Assembly (NCBI RefSeq): GCF_006539925.1 | Contig: NZ_BJNY01000001.1 | Span: 248,001 to 312,000 of the forward strand | Length of the DNA stretch: 64,000 nucleotides | Reading direction: 5' to 3' | Origin: Glutamicibacter uratoxydans | GTDB taxonomy: Bacteria; Actinomycetota; Actinomycetes; Actinomycetales; Micrococcaceae | Part shown: piece after piece, positions 25,019-30,977 of the stretch | How the letters are laid out: every line of letters starts with the position of its first letter | Position numbering within the stretch: position 1 is the first letter of the stretch | Translations under genes and position numbers: made by a program | The notes under the pieces: generated by a model | Seen by the model: only the letters and a program-made list of their open reading frames with translations | Told to the model about the DNA's origin: nothing | Database searches by the model: none

Positions 25019-26335
25019 TTAGTAGCTGCGCAGCAGCTTTTCCAGTACGCGCACGCCGAACTTAATGGAGTCCACGGGGACTTTCTCATCGACACCGTGG
25101 AACATGCCAGTGAAGTCGAGATCGGCCGGCAGCTGCAGGGGTGCGAACCCGTAGCCGGTGATGCCAAGCTGTGCCAGCGCCTTGTTGTCGGTGCCGCCGG
25201 AAAGCATATACGGAAGCACCACCGCTTCTGGATCTTCAGACAGCAGTGCTTGAACCATGGAATCGACAAGCGCTCCGGCAAACGGAACCTCCAGCGAAAG
25301 CTGCTCGTGAACCATGCTCAATTCAATGTGCTCTCCGGCCAGTTCCTTGATTTTCTGGACAGTGGCCGCATGTTCCTCGGGCAGTGTCCGGCAGTCAATC
25401 AGCGCTTCTGCCTGTCCGGGGATGACATTGTGTTTGTATCCTGCGTCGAGAACCGAAGGGTTCGCGGTGTTCTGCAGCGTGGCGCCGACAAATCGCGAGA
25501 CACTTCCCATGGCATGCAGCAGCGGAGCTGGATCCTGCTCGTCGAAGGACAGCCCGGTCATTTCTGCGACGCTTTCCAGCAGGGCGCGAGTGGTCTTCGT
25601 GTAGGACAACGGCCACTGGTGCTCCCCGATTCTGCCGACGGCAGATGCCAGACGGGTCACCGGATTTTCGGTGTTGATCTGCGACCCATGTCCTGCAGTG
25701 CCTCGTGCGGTCAGCTTCATCCAGGCAATGCCCTTCTCAGCTGTTTGAAGCATGTAGGCGCGTTTTCCGTTGATCTCAACAGAAAAACCGCCGACCTCGC
25801 TGATCGCTTCTGATGCTCCGGCAAATACTTCCGGATGATGCTCCACCATCCATTCGGCGCCATATTCACCCCCGGCTTCCTCGTCGGCAAAGAAGGCGAG
25901 GATCAGGTCCCGAGGAACCTCGATCCCCTCGCGCACGATGTGCCTGGCTGCCGCGAGGATCATGGCGTCCATATTCTTCATGTCCACCGCACCACGGCCC
26001 CAGATCATGCCGTCAATGATCTCGCCGCCGAAGGGGTCGACGCTCCAGTCCTCTTTGATGGCGGGCACCACATCCAAATGGCCGTGCACGATCAGTGCCG
26101 GAAGCGAGGAATCGCTCCCGGGGATCCGCACTATGACATTCGCCCGGCCGGGTGCAGATTCGTAGATCTTTGGCGACAGGCCCACTTCCTCAAGGAGTGC
26201 AACCACATACTTTGCCGCTTCGATCTCGCCATTGCCTTGGTTGTTGCCGAAGTTGGATGTGTCCATCTGAATCAGCCGCTGGCAAATCTCAACTGCTTCG
26301 TTTTCCATCTGTTCCAGCGCGTGAGCCATTTCCAT
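25019..26335 (-). CDS. M20 family metallopeptidase
   Basis: 438 residues of the ArgE/DapE/carboxypeptidase clan. Zinc and catalytic residues are visible in VHGHLDVVP, GRGAVDMKN and FADEEAGGEYG, followed by the dimerisation domain (about 190-300) and a closing C-terminal lobe. Such enzymes hydrolyse dipeptides or N-acyl amino acids. AAGGA lies 9 bases before the ATG at 26335. It is 44 bases from the TAXI gene with no hairpin between, so it may be co-transcribed with the two-component and TAXI genes. Confidence 0.87.
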   Translation of the reverse strand: MEMAHALEQMENEAVEICQRLIQMDTSNFGNNQGNGEIEAAKYVVALLEEVGLSPKIYESAPGRANVIVRIPGSDSSLPALIVHGHLDVVPAIKEDWSVDPFGGEIIDGMIWGRGAVDMKNMDAMILAAARHIVREGIEVPRDLILAFFADEEAGGEYGAEWMVEHHPEVFAGASEAISEVGGFSVEINGKRAYMLQTAEKGIAWMKLTARGTAGHGSQINTENPVTRLASAVGRIGEHQWPLSYTKTTRALLESVAEMTGLSFDEQDPAPLLHAMGSVSRFVGATLQNTANPSVLDAGYKHNVIPGQAEALIDCRTLPEEHAATVQKIKELAGEHIELSMVHEQLSLEVPFAGALVDSMVQALLSEDPEAVVLPYMLSGGTDNKALAQLGITGYGFAPLQLPADLDFTGMFHGVDEKVPVDSIKFGVRVLEKLLRSY

Positions 26336-26379: not shown

Positions 26380-27348
26380 TTAGCCGTGCAGCTGCCGATA
26401 AGCGGTTCTGGCACCAGGATGCAGCGGCTGCCCTGCGGTGCTGATCAGCGATTGCGGGCTCAGGAACTGCATGCCGGCTGTTTGTTCCGGGATCAGTTCC
26501 TGCGCATGTTCCACCAGCATGCGGACAATTCTTCCTACTAGATCTTCGTCCAGGCTTTCGGACGCCATCAGCAGATTGGCAACGCCGATGCTTGAAGCCT
26601 CCGGAACTCGGGGGTAGGTGCCGCCGGGGATCGTCACGTGGTCGTACAGTCCTGGATAGCTTCTGCGCAAAGACTGGAGCACGTCGTTGAGATTCATCAG
26701 CCGCAGGTCGACGTGCCGGGCGAGCTCCGCGACTCCACGTACCGGCATGCCACCGAAAAGGAAGAGCGCATCAATGTCGCCGCTTTTCAAGGCCTCCAAT
26801 CCATCGGCATAGCCGAGTTTGACTTCTTCCGGCGGCCTGGCGGCGGTGGGCAGCCCGGCCGCTTTGAGGATCCTTTGCCCTGTCACCCAGGTCCCGGACC
26901 CTGCCGCTCCAGTTCCGATGCGGCGTCCAGCCAGATCATCAAGTGTGAAGATTCTGGACTCGGCACGGGAAATGCAGTGGAAGTAGTTTTGGTACACCCT
27001 GCCCAGGGCCACCGGCTTGCTGCCATGGCCATCCTGGCGATACTGCGCGACGGTGTCCGCCAATGCCAATGACAACTGGGCGTCGCCGCTGGCCAGCATA
27101 TTCAGGTTCTGCACGCTCGCTTCAGTGGCGATGGCCCGTGAAGTTTTCGCGATTCCGTGACGAACGAGAGCCAGCGACAATAGGGTCGCGAATTCAAAAT
27201 AGACTCCACCTTCTTCACCTGCCGCGATGTTCAGTTCGTCCGCTGAATGGGCGCTGCATCCGCCGAAGGCAACAGGAGCGGCCACAGCAAGCGGCAGTCC
27301 CAGCGACCATTTGAGCACGGTCCTTCGGGACAGTTTCGAGCTACTCAT
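26380..27348 (-). CDS. TAXI family solute-binding lipoprotein
   Basis: 322 residues of the TAXI group of TRAP-type binding proteins. The N-terminus has a twin-arginine motif SRRTVLKW, a hydrophobic stretch and a lipobox FGGC, so export by Tat and lipid anchoring are likely. The family core GEEGGVYFEFATLL and GAAGSGTWVTG follow. The ATG at 27348 is chosen for GGGAG upstream and overlaps the kinase gene by eight bases. No TRAP membrane subunit is present nearby, suggesting a sensory rather than transport role; known TAXI proteins bind glutamate or dicarboxylates. Confidence 0.88.
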   Translation of the reverse strand: MSSSKLSRRTVLKWSLGLPLAVAAPVAFGGCSAHSADELNIAAGEEGGVYFEFATLLSLALVRHGIAKTSRAIATEASVQNLNMLASGDAQLSLALADTVAQYRQDGHGSKPVALGRVYQNYFHCISRAESRIFTLDDLAGRRIGTGAAGSGTWVTGQRILKAAGLPTAARPPEEVKLGYADGLEALKSGDIDALFLFGGMPVRGVAELARHVDLRLMNLNDVLQSLRRSYPGLYDHVTIPGGTYPRVPEASSIGVANLLMASESLDEDLVGRIVRMLVEHAQELIPEQTAGMQFLSPQSLISTAGQPLHPGARTAYRQLHG

Positions 27349-28780
27349 CGTTTGCTCCCGCCGCAACAGACGCTTGGCCCCGTGGAAGCTGCAGGGCTGC
27401 GCGCAGTCCTCCGCCAACAGCATTCTCGACGCTCAGCGTTCCCTTATTCGCCTTGGCCAAACTCTGAACGATAGCCATGCCAAGTCCTGTGCCCGCGATC
27501 TGCCCGGCTGGCTCGGCTCTCCAGTACCTTCGCGAGACCAGGGCAAGGTCTGGCTCGGGCAGGCCCTTCCCGTGATCGCGAATCGCAATTTCTACGGTTC
27601 GAGAAGCAGCCGTCAATTCAAGTTCTATGGGAGCGCCGGCGGCATATTTCAGTGCGTTCGAGATCAGTTCTTCAAGCATCATTTGAAGTTCATATTCATT
27701 GCATTCAACGTAGATTTCGTCGGGCTCTTGCTGTGGAATCTTGAGCAGCAGCGGCGTCTTGAGCTGAGCCGCCCGAGCGGTATGCCGCTCGATCTCATCT
27801 CTCAGCATGGCCGCCGCTGGCAACGAAGCCGTCTGCGTTTCTACAGTCTGTGCGTTGGAATACGAGTTTGCTTCCGACACCCGATGCTCGGCGCTGGCCA
27901 GAAGCAGCACAGAATCAATCAAGTTTTCCATCCTCCGCAGCTCTTTCTCGACTGCTGCGACTTCGCCGCTGAGAGCCTGTGCTCCCAAGCGCATCTTCAG
28001 CAGATCCACGCGCAGCCTCAATGCGGCGATGGGATTGCGCAGCTGGTGGGAAGTCTCAGCGATCAGTTCCCGCTGCTGCTCCAAGCTGTCGGTGACCGAC
28101 TGCGCCATCTGGCCAAAGGAGCGCGACAGCGCCCTCAGCTCGGGCGGGCCGGCTGCCTGCAGCGGGCGGGGCTTCTGGGTGCGAGCCAATTCAGAAACTG
28201 CCCGGATCAGCTGCTGGACGGGCCGCAATACCCAGGTTGAAAGGCGGTCAGCCAAAAGCAGCAGTCCAGCGCAGGCGCTGAGCGTCGCGATGACAACAAT
28301 TGACCAGCCGCGCAGGATGGTGCTTCGAGCCGGCTCCAGATTGGCTTGCAGAATCACGGAGCCAAGTACTTGTGTTGCGTCTCCAAACGGCCTGGCAAGC
28401 ACTGCCGTAGAGCTGCTGAATGGGCTGATGTCCTGAAGTTCGGTCTGTTCCAGATTGATGCTCGCATCCCGCATGGCGGTGCTCACCACCGGATCGAGCG
28501 GATCGATATTCCCCGAGGACAGCTGTCTTCCGCCGATGTTGATGATCAGGCCTTCATTGAACAGTTCGCTATAGGTGTCCATCTCCAGCTGAAGCGCGCC
28601 GATATCCAAGGGATCGTTGTCGAAGCTTGCCAACTGGACGAATCGGTTCATTGCGGCAAGCCTGGAAAGCTGAACGTCCTGGGTAGTCGTGCTGCTGATG
28701 CTGCGCAGCAGCAAGACCGACAAAATTACCGCAATAAAGCACAGCAAGGCGCCTAGGACGGCCAAGACGCGCAATCTCAT
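27341..28780 (-). CDS. Sensor histidine kinase
   Basis: 479 residues. Two membrane helices (about 4-28 and 155-182) flank an extracytoplasmic domain of about 125 residues. HAMP follows, then the H-box AETSHQLRNPIAAL, N-box ELISNALKYA, IRDHGKGLP and GTGLGMAIV, all intact, so it should be an active kinase. It overlaps the response-regulator gene by four bases (ATGA) and the TAXI gene by eight. The arrangement resembles TctD-TctE, where a solute-binding protein reports to the kinase. Confidence 0.92.
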   Translation of the reverse strand: MRLRVLAVLGALLCFIAVILSVLLLRSISSTTTQDVQLSRLAAMNRFVQLASFDNDPLDIGALQLEMDTYSELFNEGLIINIGGRQLSSGNIDPLDPVVSTAMRDASINLEQTELQDISPFSSSTAVLARPFGDATQVLGSVILQANLEPARSTILRGWSIVVIATLSACAGLLLLADRLSTWVLRPVQQLIRAVSELARTQKPRPLQAAGPPELRALSRSFGQMAQSVTDSLEQQRELIAETSHQLRNPIAALRLRVDLLKMRLGAQALSGEVAAVEKELRRMENLIDSVLLLASAEHRVSEANSYSNAQTVETQTASLPAAAMLRDEIERHTARAAQLKTPLLLKIPQQEPDEIYVECNEYELQMMLEELISNALKYAAGAPIELELTAASRTVEIAIRDHGKGLPEPDLALVSRRYWRAEPAGQIAGTGLGMAIVQSLAKANKGTLSVENAVGGGLRAALQLPRGQASVAAGANDE

Positions 28781-29442
28781 GGGCTGGGAACTTCTAGACG
28801 GTAGCCGACGCCTCGAACGTTGATGATCATCCCGGGGGTCTCAAGCTTCGACCGCAGGCCGGTGAGGTGGACATCCAGCGACCTGGAAACCGCGACGAAT
28901 GCGTCGCCCCACAGCGAATCCAGAATCTGTTCGCGAGTCACCACAGATCCTGCATGTCGCGCCAAGAGGGTGAGCAGATCAAATTCTTTGGCAGTGAGCC
29001 CGAGGCTGCGTTCCTTGATGAATGCTTCACGCTTGTCGACGTCGATGCGCAATTGCCCCAGCTGCAGGTTGTTTGCGTCTTCGGTTTGCACCAGTGCCCG
29101 GCGGGCCACCGCTTCGATCCGCGCCATCAGAACTGCCAGGCCGATGGGCTTAATCAGGTAGTCGTCGGCGCCGAGGCGCAGACCGCGCACAACACTGCGT
29201 TCATCGTTTCGGGCGGTCAAGATGATCACCGGCGCATCGGTCACCAGACGCAGCTTGCGCAGCACCTCAAGCCCGTCAAGATCTGGAAGCCCAAGATCCA
29301 AAAGGATCATTTGGGCCGCCTGATGCTGGAGCAGTGCATCCGCTCCGCGCGCAACCCGGAACGCCTGGTGTCCAGAAGCCGTTACCGCATCCACCAGGGC
29401 GCCTGCCACTGCGTCATCATCTTCAATGATCATGAGCTGCAC
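28777..29442 (-). CDS. OmpR/PhoB-family response regulator
   Basis: 221 residues: receiver domain with acidic pocket IIEDDD and the phospho-acceptor aspartate in LLDLGLPDLDG, then a winged-helix DNA-binding domain from about 125 (LTAKEFDLLTLLARH; DVHLTGLRSKL). The start is GTG at 29442. It is first in the leftward unit and divergent from the Nramp-like gene across 254 bp, so it probably acts on that intergenic region. Confidence 0.93.
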   Translation of the reverse strand: MQLMIIEDDDAVAGALVDAVTASGHQAFRVARGADALLQHQAAQMILLDLGLPDLDGLEVLRKLRLVTDAPVIILTARNDERSVVRGLRLGADDYLIKPIGLAVLMARIEAVARRALVQTEDANNLQLGQLRIDVDKREAFIKERSLGLTAKEFDLLTLLARHAGSVVTREQILDSLWGDAFVAVSRSLDVHLTGLRSKLETPGMIINVRGVGYRLEVPSP

Positions 29443-29696
29443 GAGTACATCCTTGGTTTTCCGGGGCCTTCATCGAACTAACGCTAACAGTCTAATAGTC
29501 CTAGTCTTCAGTGTTTCTCGCACTTACCTAAGACAGTGTTAGTTCTCCGCACCGGGCTTGGAAGTAATGCACGTCACCCATAGATTCGAAGGAGTACTTG
29601 CCCCGCGCCCTGCTCGATGACGAGCCAGCCGGCCGGGAGAATATATGGCGGCTCTGCGAAGGATGCCTGCCAAACTCGCATCGTGGAGGATGGAAA

Positions 29697-30977
29697 ATGT
29701 CTGAGACAACTCAGCAGCTCAATGTTGACAGGGACGGGGGCCGGCCTCCGAAGTGGAAGATTGTCGGCCCCGGCCTTGTGGTGGCGGCAACCGGTGTTGG
29801 CGCAGCCGATATGGTTGCGACTCTCGTTGCCGGCAGCCAGTACGGCTACGCGCTTCTGTGGGCGGTGATTCTCGGCGTTATCCTGAAAATCGTGCTCGTT
29901 GAGGGCGCCGGACGCTACACCTTGGCCACCGGGAAGACGATTTTCGAGGGCTGGAAGACCCTGGGCCCTTGGACTACCTGGTACTTCGGCCCCTACATCA
30001 TCATCTGGGGCTTCGTGTATGGCGCCACCGCAATGAGCTCCGCCGCCATGCCGTTGGCGGCGCTGTTCCCTGCACTGGATCTGAAGATCTGGGCTGTCAT
30101 CATGGGCCTGTTAGGCTTCGTGCTGGTCTGGTTTGGAAAGTACAACTTCTTCGAGAAGATCACCGCAGTGCTCGTGGGCATCATGTTCGTCACCGTGGTC
30201 GGCTTGGCGTTCATCGCCGTGCCCAATATCCCCGAGATGTTCAAGGGCCTGATCCCGATGATCCCCGAAGGCGGCGTGGTCTACACCCTGGCGCTGGCCG
30301 GCGGCGTGGGCGGAACCATCACCTTGGCGGCCTATGGATACTGGCTGCGTGAAAAGGGCTGGTACACCCCGAAGTGGATGCGCGTGATGCGCATTGACAA
30401 CACCATGGCCTATGTCATGACCGGTATTTTTGTGATCGCGATGCTGATCGTCGGCGCCGAAGTGGTGCGCGCCGCCGGCGTTGCCATCTCCGGCGGCGAC
30501 AAGGGCCTGCTGGAGCTCGCCGATGTGCTGCGCGAGCGCTACGGAGTTGTGGTCGGCAATGGATTCCTGGTTGGCTTCTGGGCCGCCTCCTTCTCCTCGA
30601 TCATCGGCGTGTGGAATGGCGTGTCATTGATGTTTGCCGACTTCTGGGGCCATATGCGCAAGAAGCCTGCCAACCATCCGGACACCATGACCGGCGGAAA
30701 GTACTTCAAGTTCTATGTCCTGTGGCTGACTTTCCCACCAATGGTGTTGTTCCTGCTGGACAAGCCGATCGCACTGATCCTGGCCTACGGCGTACTGGGT
30801 GCATTGTTCATGCCGTTCCTGGCAGTCACATTGCTTGGACTGCTTAATGGTCGTCGCATTCCGAAGGAATGGGCCAACCGCCTGCATACAAACATCGCGC
30901 TGGCCATCACCGCGATCCTGTTCATCATTCTCGGCGGGCAGCAGCTGTGGAAGGCAGTGGCGCCGTTGTTCGCCTAA
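29697..30977 (+). CDS. Nramp-fold transporter lacking metal-site motifs
   Basis: 426 residues with about eleven membrane helices and clear overall Nramp similarity. The canonical helix-1 DPGN is replaced by GVGAADM, and the helix-6 MPH motif by GGVGGT, so manganese or iron transport should not be assumed. B. subtilis YcsG, an Nramp homologue in the 5-oxoproline operon, shows that such proteins can be tied to organic substrates. The ATG at 29697 has GGAGG 7 bases upstream. It is divergent from the two-component-TAXI unit and ends in a strong terminator. Confidence 0.85.
   Translation: MSETTQQLNVDRDGGRPPKWKIVGPGLVVAATGVGAADMVATLVAGSQYGYALLWAVILGVILKIVLVEGAGRYTLATGKTIFEGWKTLGPWTTWYFGPYIIIWGFVYGATAMSSAAMPLAALFPALDLKIWAVIMGLLGFVLVWFGKYNFFEKITAVLVGIMFVTVVGLAFIAVPNIPEMFKGLIPMIPEGGVVYTLALAGGVGGTITLAAYGYWLREKGWYTPKWMRVMRIDNTMAYVMTGIFVIAMLIVGAEVVRAAGVAISGGDKGLLELADVLRERYGVVVGNGFLVGFWAASFSSIIGVWNGVSLMFADFWGHMRKKPANHPDTMTGGKYFKFYVLWLTFPPMVLFLLDKPIALILAYGVLGALFMPFLAVTLLGLLNGRRIPKEWANRLHTNIALAITAILFIILGGQQLWKAVAPLFA

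Follow-up and report, generated by a model that had tools for sequence, protein, structure and literature searches.

Binding proteins that serve as co-sensors of a kinase are already known in a few cases. In BctC-BctE of Bordetella pertussis, induction requires the binding protein of a secondary transporter, a protein that also interacts with the kinase (PMC5812351), and DctB-DctS-DctA of Bacillus subtilis combines an accessory co-receptor with a kinase for dicarboxylates (PMC6978683). A TAXI protein without a TRAP permease has also been described, in TAXI-GltS of B. pertussis, where the TAXI gene overlaps its neighbour (PMC12344293). Here we analyse a TAXI-family solute-binding lipoprotein gene, and the sensor kinase gene that it overlaps, in a 64,000-nucleotide stretch of Glutamicibacter uratoxydans (contig NZ_BJNY01000001.1, positions 248,001 to 312,000; hereafter the window). 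From comparison of sequences we think it likely that the lipoprotein, the kinase and the adjoining response regulator make up a three-part sensing unit of the GluR-GluK type, with the divergent transporter gene as its target.

GluR-GluK of Streptomyces coelicolor (SCO5778/SCO5779) is the best characterised cousin of the window system; in both, an OmpR-type regulator and a kinase are divergent from an adjoining transporter operon; the window has this layout in the form of an OmpR-type regulator and a HAMP kinase adjoining a transporter gene. GluR binds ahead of gluA (PMC10345050) and GluK is reported in a review to bind glutamate, not glutamine (PMC9739842), and the passages on the pair seen in these two reviews make no mention of a TAXI neighbour. 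In an unannotated Streptomyces record (NZ_CP081497.1, L177), our profile matches put gluABC-type genes on one side of the regulator-kinase pair and, on the other, a TAXI gene that converges on the kinase gene; 17 loci of the large-genome code g110 have this arrangement as well. The target in S. coelicolor is gluABCD, whereas the candidate target in the window is Nramp-like and no gluABCD genes adjoin the pair; the window TAXI gene also sits in the same operon and encodes a lipoprotein, whereas six inspected Streptomyces-like TAXI proteins have an anchor resembling a transmembrane helix.

The other precedents differ in their parts. The binding protein of BctC-BctE is of the TctC family and serves uptake as well as signalling, whereas that of the window is of the TAXI family and has no permease of its own. 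DctB, a TRAP-type binding protein, belongs to another family than the window protein and works with another kinase, and there the sensing unit includes the transporter. The neighbour of the B. pertussis TAXI gene encodes a glutamate symporter, that of the window gene a kinase. A TctC/TctE-like partnership, proposed in a sequence-only reading of this DNA, is apt as an analogy of mechanism but not as a statement of family, since the profiles match TAXI and not TctC. Full-text searches of open-licence papers returned no TAXI protein described as a kinase co-sensor; in some of the papers returned, TAXI genes appear in tables and nowhere else.

Regulator, kinase and TAXI genes form one overlapping operon on the minus strand (Table 1), with 4 bases shared by regulator and kinase and 8 by kinase and TAXI; the latter overlap, noted in the sequence-only reading, is exact. 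The Nramp-like gene, which the sequence-only reading does not mention, diverges from the regulator gene (plus versus minus strand). The order Nramp-like gene, divergent regulator, kinase, TAXI, M20 peptidase, acyl-CoA dehydrogenase recurs in 8/8 relatives, which were picked by similarity to the TAXI protein and are all Glutamicibacter or Arthrobacter records.

Table 1. Features of the locus, in positions of the window.
Feature	Position	Strand	Basis or remark
TAXI-family solute-binding lipoprotein gene	26380..27348	-	ATG start, 322 aa; proposed dedicated co-sensor
Lipoprotein signal spanning codons 1-31, with twin Arg at codons 8-9 and Cys at codon 31	27256..27348	-	Sequence and 9/9 invariance
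Kinase stop and TAXI start, overlapping by 8 bases (ATGAGTAG)	27341..27348	-	Sequence
HAMP-HisKA-HATPase sensor kinase, GluK-like, 479 aa	27341..28780	-	Pfam, structure model
Kinase extracytoplasmic sensor domain, residues ~34-150, flanked by two transmembrane helices	28331..28681	-	Hydropathy, model elements, signature
OmpR-type response regulator, GluR-like, GTG start	28777..29442	-	Sequence, Pfam
Probable operator, conserved (CCTAAGACAGTGTTAGT), in the interval from regulator to Nramp-like gene	29527..29543	.	Site comparison
Nramp-family transporter without metal-site signature, probable target gene	29697..30977	+	Profiles; alternative longer TTG start at 29598
M20 peptidase, downstream neighbour kept in Glutamicibacter-type loci	25019..26335	-	Profiles, neighbourhood comparison

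The identity of the binding protein is clear from profiles, with 180.9 bits against TIGR02122 TRAP_TAXI (cut-off 84.35) and 152.6 bits against PF16868 NMT1_3 (cut-off 27). Pfam at E≤0.001 reports NMT1_3, NMT1 and Phosphonate-bd, and no TctC-family domain. The sequence resembles that of solved TAXI proteins, and the structure model (predicted local distance difference test score, pLDDT, 83.6) finds as its best PDB folds 1us4 and 8u79, T. thermophilus TAXI with L-glutamate, followed by 4ddd, 9ibo and 8s4j; that the closest solved folds are glutamate-bound TAXI proteins is a hint of a glutamate-like ligand. The N-terminus, MSSSKLSRRTVLKWSLGLPLAVAAPVAFGGC, read by eye, contains a twin-arginine motif and a lipobox-like FGGC, in agreement with the twin-arginine translocation motif and lipobox recognised earlier, and R8, R9 and C31 are invariant in 9/9 Glutamicibacter-type sequences. 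A lipobox pattern count gave none in 17/17 Streptomyces-like gluA-linked TAXI rows. The six Streptomyces-like kinase-linked proteins that were inspected have an Arg-rich N-terminus and a transmembrane-like stretch without a lipobox Cys (for example LGLLLWWLLPLG in L126:5064-6119), which would seem from the sequences of these six to be a membrane anchor of another kind.

No TRAP subunit adjoins the TAXI gene in the window, as the sequence-only reading had said, which named a distant TRAP permease as the finding that would overturn it. Such a permease was sought throughout the genome to which the window belongs (49 contigs totalling 3.79 Mb, completeness 99.99%) and not found: TIGR02123, the fused TRAP permease, has 0 matches at E≤1e-3, and the sole PF06808 match (24.2 bits) is a CitMHS-family protein (300.7 bits) and not a TRAP permease. 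A role as TRAP subunit with a distant permease was rejected, as no permease is detected in this genome. The genome does encode TctA (508 bits), which is of another transporter family and is not known to take TAXI proteins.

The partnership with the kinase is close. When 149 Micrococcaceae genomes are searched with the first 180 residues of the kinase, 28 give a match at E≤1e-6; in each of the 28, a TAXI match lies no more than ~2 kb from it on that contig (compared by eye from two tables), so that among the 149 genomes there are 0 cases of the sensor domain without an adjoining TAXI gene. In a further 15 Micrococcaceae genomes the TAXI matches are all weaker (≤138.5 bits) and no such kinase is present, and one genome of the window's genus code (G871) has neither sensor domain nor TAXI. 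Distances between TAXI proteins and between kinase sensor domains are correlated (rho 0.767, with 0/999 permutations as high), as expected of a co-inherited pair. From this adjacency in 28/28 genomes, and from the way in which TAXI stays with the kinase while the transporter varies, we infer that the TAXI protein is probably a co-sensor, the reading with the best comparative support; the sequence-only proposal thus has firmer grounds than when it was made.

The kinase itself has HAMP, HisKA and HATPase as its only Pfam domains at E≤0.001, with no TctE-type N-terminal domain at that threshold, and a profile scan of six related kinases (E≤1) gave no named sensor domain. Hydropathy places transmembrane segments at residues 1–33 and 155–181. 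The structure model (mean pLDDT 70.8, predicted template modelling score 0.37; in its alignment the row of L006 is short of its first residues) leaves the sensor fold unnamed, the best 50 Foldseek rows being kinases and photoreceptor kinases, and from the order of its elements the domain may be Cache/PDC-like. Over 59 kinases the domain carries a signature, Y-x-x-[LV]-[YF]-G-[EI], which reads YSELFNE in the window, around Y70 (90%), Y/F74 and G75 (N in the window). In L067:6051-8504 (-), one 817-aa frame takes in HAMP, HisKA and HATPase_c followed by NMT1_3; a twin-arginine/Cys segment separates the kinase part from the TAXI part and is conceivably an internal membrane anchor. This frame is not counted as proof, as it comes from one draft genome, in which a lost stop or an indel would look like a natural fusion.

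For a wider survey, TIGR02122 was run against two sets of 396 genomes each, one from the order and one from the phylum, with 83 and 50, respectively, exceeding the cut-off. The order set has 118 over-cut-off places (hand count, at most five candidates being scored per genome), of which we took the 49 non-own places among the 50 lowest-scoring and 12 of the 68 higher ones, in 60 regions that contain 2 further higher places; this sample leans to low-scoring places, and shares within the order are not those of a random sample. From the phylum set, 61 of 62 new places were taken in 60 regions (G451:C7 was left out), and the places of the 120 fetched regions together with the 8 relatives make 132 TAXI places. 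A place was called kinase-linked with a kinase within 2.5 kb and a regulator within 5 kb, and TRAP-linked with a TRAP permease within 4.5 kb. By these rules 58 are kinase-linked, 59 TRAP-linked, 3 both (L069, L109 and L111, counted as TRAP, which brings that class to 62) and 12 neither, where counts are of rows and not of independent events (L063, for instance, duplicates L006). The 12 that have no kinase and no TRAP permease within these distances are L054, L060, L066, L079, L084, L132, L137, L143, L145, L151, L157 and L162; some lie at contig ends, and others possibly have yet other partners.

All 58 kinase-linked TAXI genes adjoin the kinase gene at its 3' end, within 20 bp in 42 and within 150 bp in 54, distances that use the coordinates of the longest open reading frames and so overstate overlap. 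The two genes are on the same strand in 27 and convergent in 31, a regulator is in reach in 57, and the set spans 19 genus codes and 14 family codes (hand tally). This spread, and the order kept in 8/8 relatives, make the juxtaposition of kinase and TAXI genes more than a chance event. In a tree of 133 TAXI rows, from a quick IQ-TREE search with the Shimodaira-Hasegawa-like approximate likelihood-ratio test (SH-aLRT) as its only support measure, a single set of 63 rows (SH-aLRT 91) takes in 58 of the 59 kinase-linked rows, the window's among them, together with 4 neither and 1 TRAP. The label 'kinase-linked' changes 7 times on this tree as against 43.6 times with shuffled labels (0/500 shuffles as low), a contrast that near-copies inflate. 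The kinase-linked TAXI genes would thus appear, as far as this tree goes, to have one main origin.

The same tree nests the kinase-linked set among TRAP-linked TAXI proteins, as might be expected if a former TRAP cluster had lost its permease and left behind a TAXI gene that hitch-hikes beside the kinase and has no sensing function. We regard this as highly improbable, given the 28/28 co-occurrence of kinase and TAXI, an adjacency kept in two orientations across the 14 family codes, and the retention of the equivalents of the pocket residues Tyr45 and Ser75 in 54/59 and 57/59 kinase-linked rows, respectively.

What varies beside the triad of regulator, kinase and TAXI is the transporter. Next to the 58 we find gluA-type ABC genes in 26, metabolite:H+ symporter (MHS) genes in 12, Nramp-like genes in 12 (plus the window), a DctA-like (DAACS) gene in 1 and none of these in 7. 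Classes were assigned by similarity to seeds, which are backed by Pfam and NCBIfam. The ABC seeds (ABC_tran, SBP_bac_3, BPD_transp_1) are described by their profiles as a polar amino-acid ABC system, the name gluABCD resting on position and on the S. coelicolor reviews and not on profiles. The MHS seed falls in the metabolite:H+ symporter families, best to NF007710/PRK10406, the KgtP model (460.5 bits, below the cut-off of 550), and the DctA-like seed matches C4-dicarboxylate transporter DctA with 450.7 bits, below the cut-off of 513. TAXI keeps to the kinase in either orientation as these neighbours change.

A TAXI protein that serves the secondary transporter next to it (here Nramp-like) as binding protein and is merely co-regulated with the kinase would have a precedent in Bordetella, where TAXI works with the non-TRAP permease GltS (PMC12344293), and would suit the Nramp-like gene beside the triad in 9/9 Glutamicibacter-type loci, as well as L091, where the Nramp-like gene follows TAXI on the same strand, and L047 and L101, with ABC genes on the TAXI side. 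In 48/51 triads, however, the named transporter is on the regulator side, across the regulator-kinase pair from TAXI. Triad-neighbour ABC systems moreover carry their own binding protein, and two triads adjoin a TRAP permease with its own second TAXI gene, L046 (one of the 7 without a named transporter) and L176 (Streptomyces sp. NBC_01207, NZ_CP108555.1), so the kinase-linked TAXI protein is not simply the binding protein of the transporter. Nor are MHS and Nramp proteins known to need binding proteins, which also counts against such a role, and we consider it distinctly unlikely.

A 17-bp sequence, CCTAAGAAAGTGTTAGT, lies between the regulator and the Nramp-like gene in 9/9 Glutamicibacter-type loci, the consensus having been built from these Nramp-type loci; the window's copy scores 16/17 and the weakest of the nine, in L010, 14/17. 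With ≤2 mismatches allowed, the window's genome has no other copy. At 3 mismatches there are 17 others, one overlapping the window's site on the other strand, and a reversed control pattern has 57 matches in the same genome, so that 3-mismatch matches are meaningless. The site also stands ahead of the unrelated MHS gene in six of seven Micrococcaceae MHS triads (L057, L058, L059, L067, L073 and L075; L062 has none at ≥13/17) and in a record of Arthrobacter sp. StoSoilB13 (L174), 7/8 in total; in L058, L059 and L174 it is upstream of the MHS gene and not between MHS gene and regulator. Matches of ≥14/17 number 15 in 745 kb of triad loci (9 Nramp-type rows including the duplicate, and 6 MHS), all at such positions, and 0 in 655 kb of TRAP loci. 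At ≥13/17 the numbers are 18 and 3, and as the two locus sets differ in make-up, the position of the sites argues better than their count. Because one site precedes both Nramp-like and unrelated MHS genes, the divergent transporter gene is probably the target of the regulator.

Several observations weigh against the three-part unit proposed here. In most of the distant triads (those of ABC type and the Nramp triads L082 and L091) no match of ≥13 is present, so the sites there must differ. The transporter is on the TAXI side in L047, L091 and L101; no regulator was found within range of the kinase-linked L153; a kinase lies only 111 bp off in L109, a place that we classed as TRAP; and L097, although kinase-linked, is outside the main set of a tree that is itself a quick search without bootstrap. 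The pocket offers three further points: Gln93 of VcGluP is Leu in the window TAXI protein, it is absent in 24/26 gluA-linked TAXI proteins, and the correlation of pocket with transporter rests on 1–2 independent contrasts in the tree. Finally, GluK is reported, in the review cited, to bind glutamate by itself in biolayer interferometry (PMC9739842), so a TAXI protein may not be needed.

This last report also favours a kinase that senses the ligand alone, with TAXI as a modulator, for example a brake that occupies the kinase as long as no ligand is bound, or a scavenger acting as a ligand buffer in its vicinity. Residue 76 of the kinase varies with the transporter, being E in 21/25 MHS/Nramp loci and I/V in 26/26 gluA loci, and the ligand may thus be read by the kinase domain as well, a weak argument as the loci are related. 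A pure scavenger would leave unexplained why the kinase is never without TAXI in 149 genomes, which a brake would explain, and we judge sensing by the kinase alone to be unlikely, if still credible.

As to the ligand, the residue that matters most in VcGluP is Gln93, a Tyr also being among the two most important, and E125A costs that protein only 1.3-fold (PMC11574862). The window pocket keeps the equivalent of Tyr45, whereas Gln93 is replaced by Leu, Glu125 by Asn and Tyr200-Met201 by Leu-Phe. With Gln93 missing in the window and in nearly all gluA-linked proteins, glutamate binding is not readable from the pocket, and judged by these residues the loss speaks against a VcGluP-like glutamate site in the gluA-linked TAXI proteins too. 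The position of Glu125 is D/E in 26/26 gluA-linked and 0/25 MHS/Nramp-linked TAXI proteins, and a ligand without an amino group, such as 2-oxoglutarate, would fit the MHS/Nramp-linked pockets, a proposal limited by the few independent contrasts, by the loss of Gln93 in both groups and by the mildness of E125A in VcGluP. The ligand class may therefore differ between the gluA and the MHS/Nramp branches.

Our model of the three-part unit combines what the sequences show, namely its components, the lack of a detectable TRAP permease, co-occurrence, transporter exchange, the shared site and the missing metal signature, with a ligand class, a kinase contact, a sign of regulation and a transport substrate that we infer. 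The TAXI lipoprotein would be anchored outside the membrane and would close around a C4-C5 acid of the glutamate family; it would alter the activity of the kinase's small extracytoplasmic domain, an action that may be one of delivery, braking or buffering. Once phosphorylated, the regulator would bind the 17-bp site, which precedes both the Nramp-like gene and the regulator's own operon, and turn on a permease expected to import the sensed organic acid and not a metal. Across many actinobacteria, such units probably help the cell to detect acids like glutamate and to induce the uptake system that happens to adjoin them.

A wider claim we hold to be quite possible, though short of probable: that TAXI proteins are obligate co-sensors of a GluK-type kinase class in Actinomycetota, Streptomyces GluR-GluK included, whose transporter is freely exchanged, one replacement being an Nramp clade without a metal site that imports a glutamate-family or 2-oxo acid, with the window as the Nramp version. 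If true, it would account for permease-less TAXI genes in Actinomycetota, add an overlooked part to a cited glutamate-sensing system that has been credited to the kinase, and open a way to the substrates of a clade in the Nramp family whose members profiles call metal transporters.

The window's Nramp-like protein scores 125.7 bits against PF01566 (cut-off 29.8) and is labelled divalent metal transporter by NCBIfam. Metal-site motifs are described as DxxN-A/CxxM in NRAMPs, DxxN-AxxT in NRATs and DxxG-TxxA/T in NRMTs, with a universal Asp (PMC8806188). The window protein lacks such a signature, and GVGA[AG]D and GGVGGTIT stand in its place in 13/13 triad-linked copies, which include the window and one duplicate. 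PxpT of Corynebacterium glutamicum, also of the Nramp family, is needed for growth on 5-oxoproline (PMC13274462), and YcsG of B. subtilis, grouped with PxpT in Nramp-family 5-oxoproline uptake, has also been reported as a Mn importer (PMC10448178). The likeness of PxpT and YcsG to the window protein is one of family, and PxpT is tied to an organic acid derived from glutamate. A second Nramp-family gene in the window's genome lies 12 bp from a D-glutamate cyclase gene (L178:3942-6044, contig C5), which hints at transport of glutamate or 5-oxoproline rather than metal. Given the missing metal signature, the PxpT precedent and the D-glutamate cyclase neighbour of the second gene, an organic substrate is plausible for the window protein. 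Metal sensing, which the Nramp neighbour might have suggested, is disfavoured by the loss of the metal signature and by the exchange with MHS and ABC genes.

The M20 peptidase gene that follows TAXI in Glutamicibacter-type loci (>800 bits to the window's profile) has a match at that place among the other triads only in L152, a weak one of 46 bits; transcription of the operon possibly reads through into this gene.

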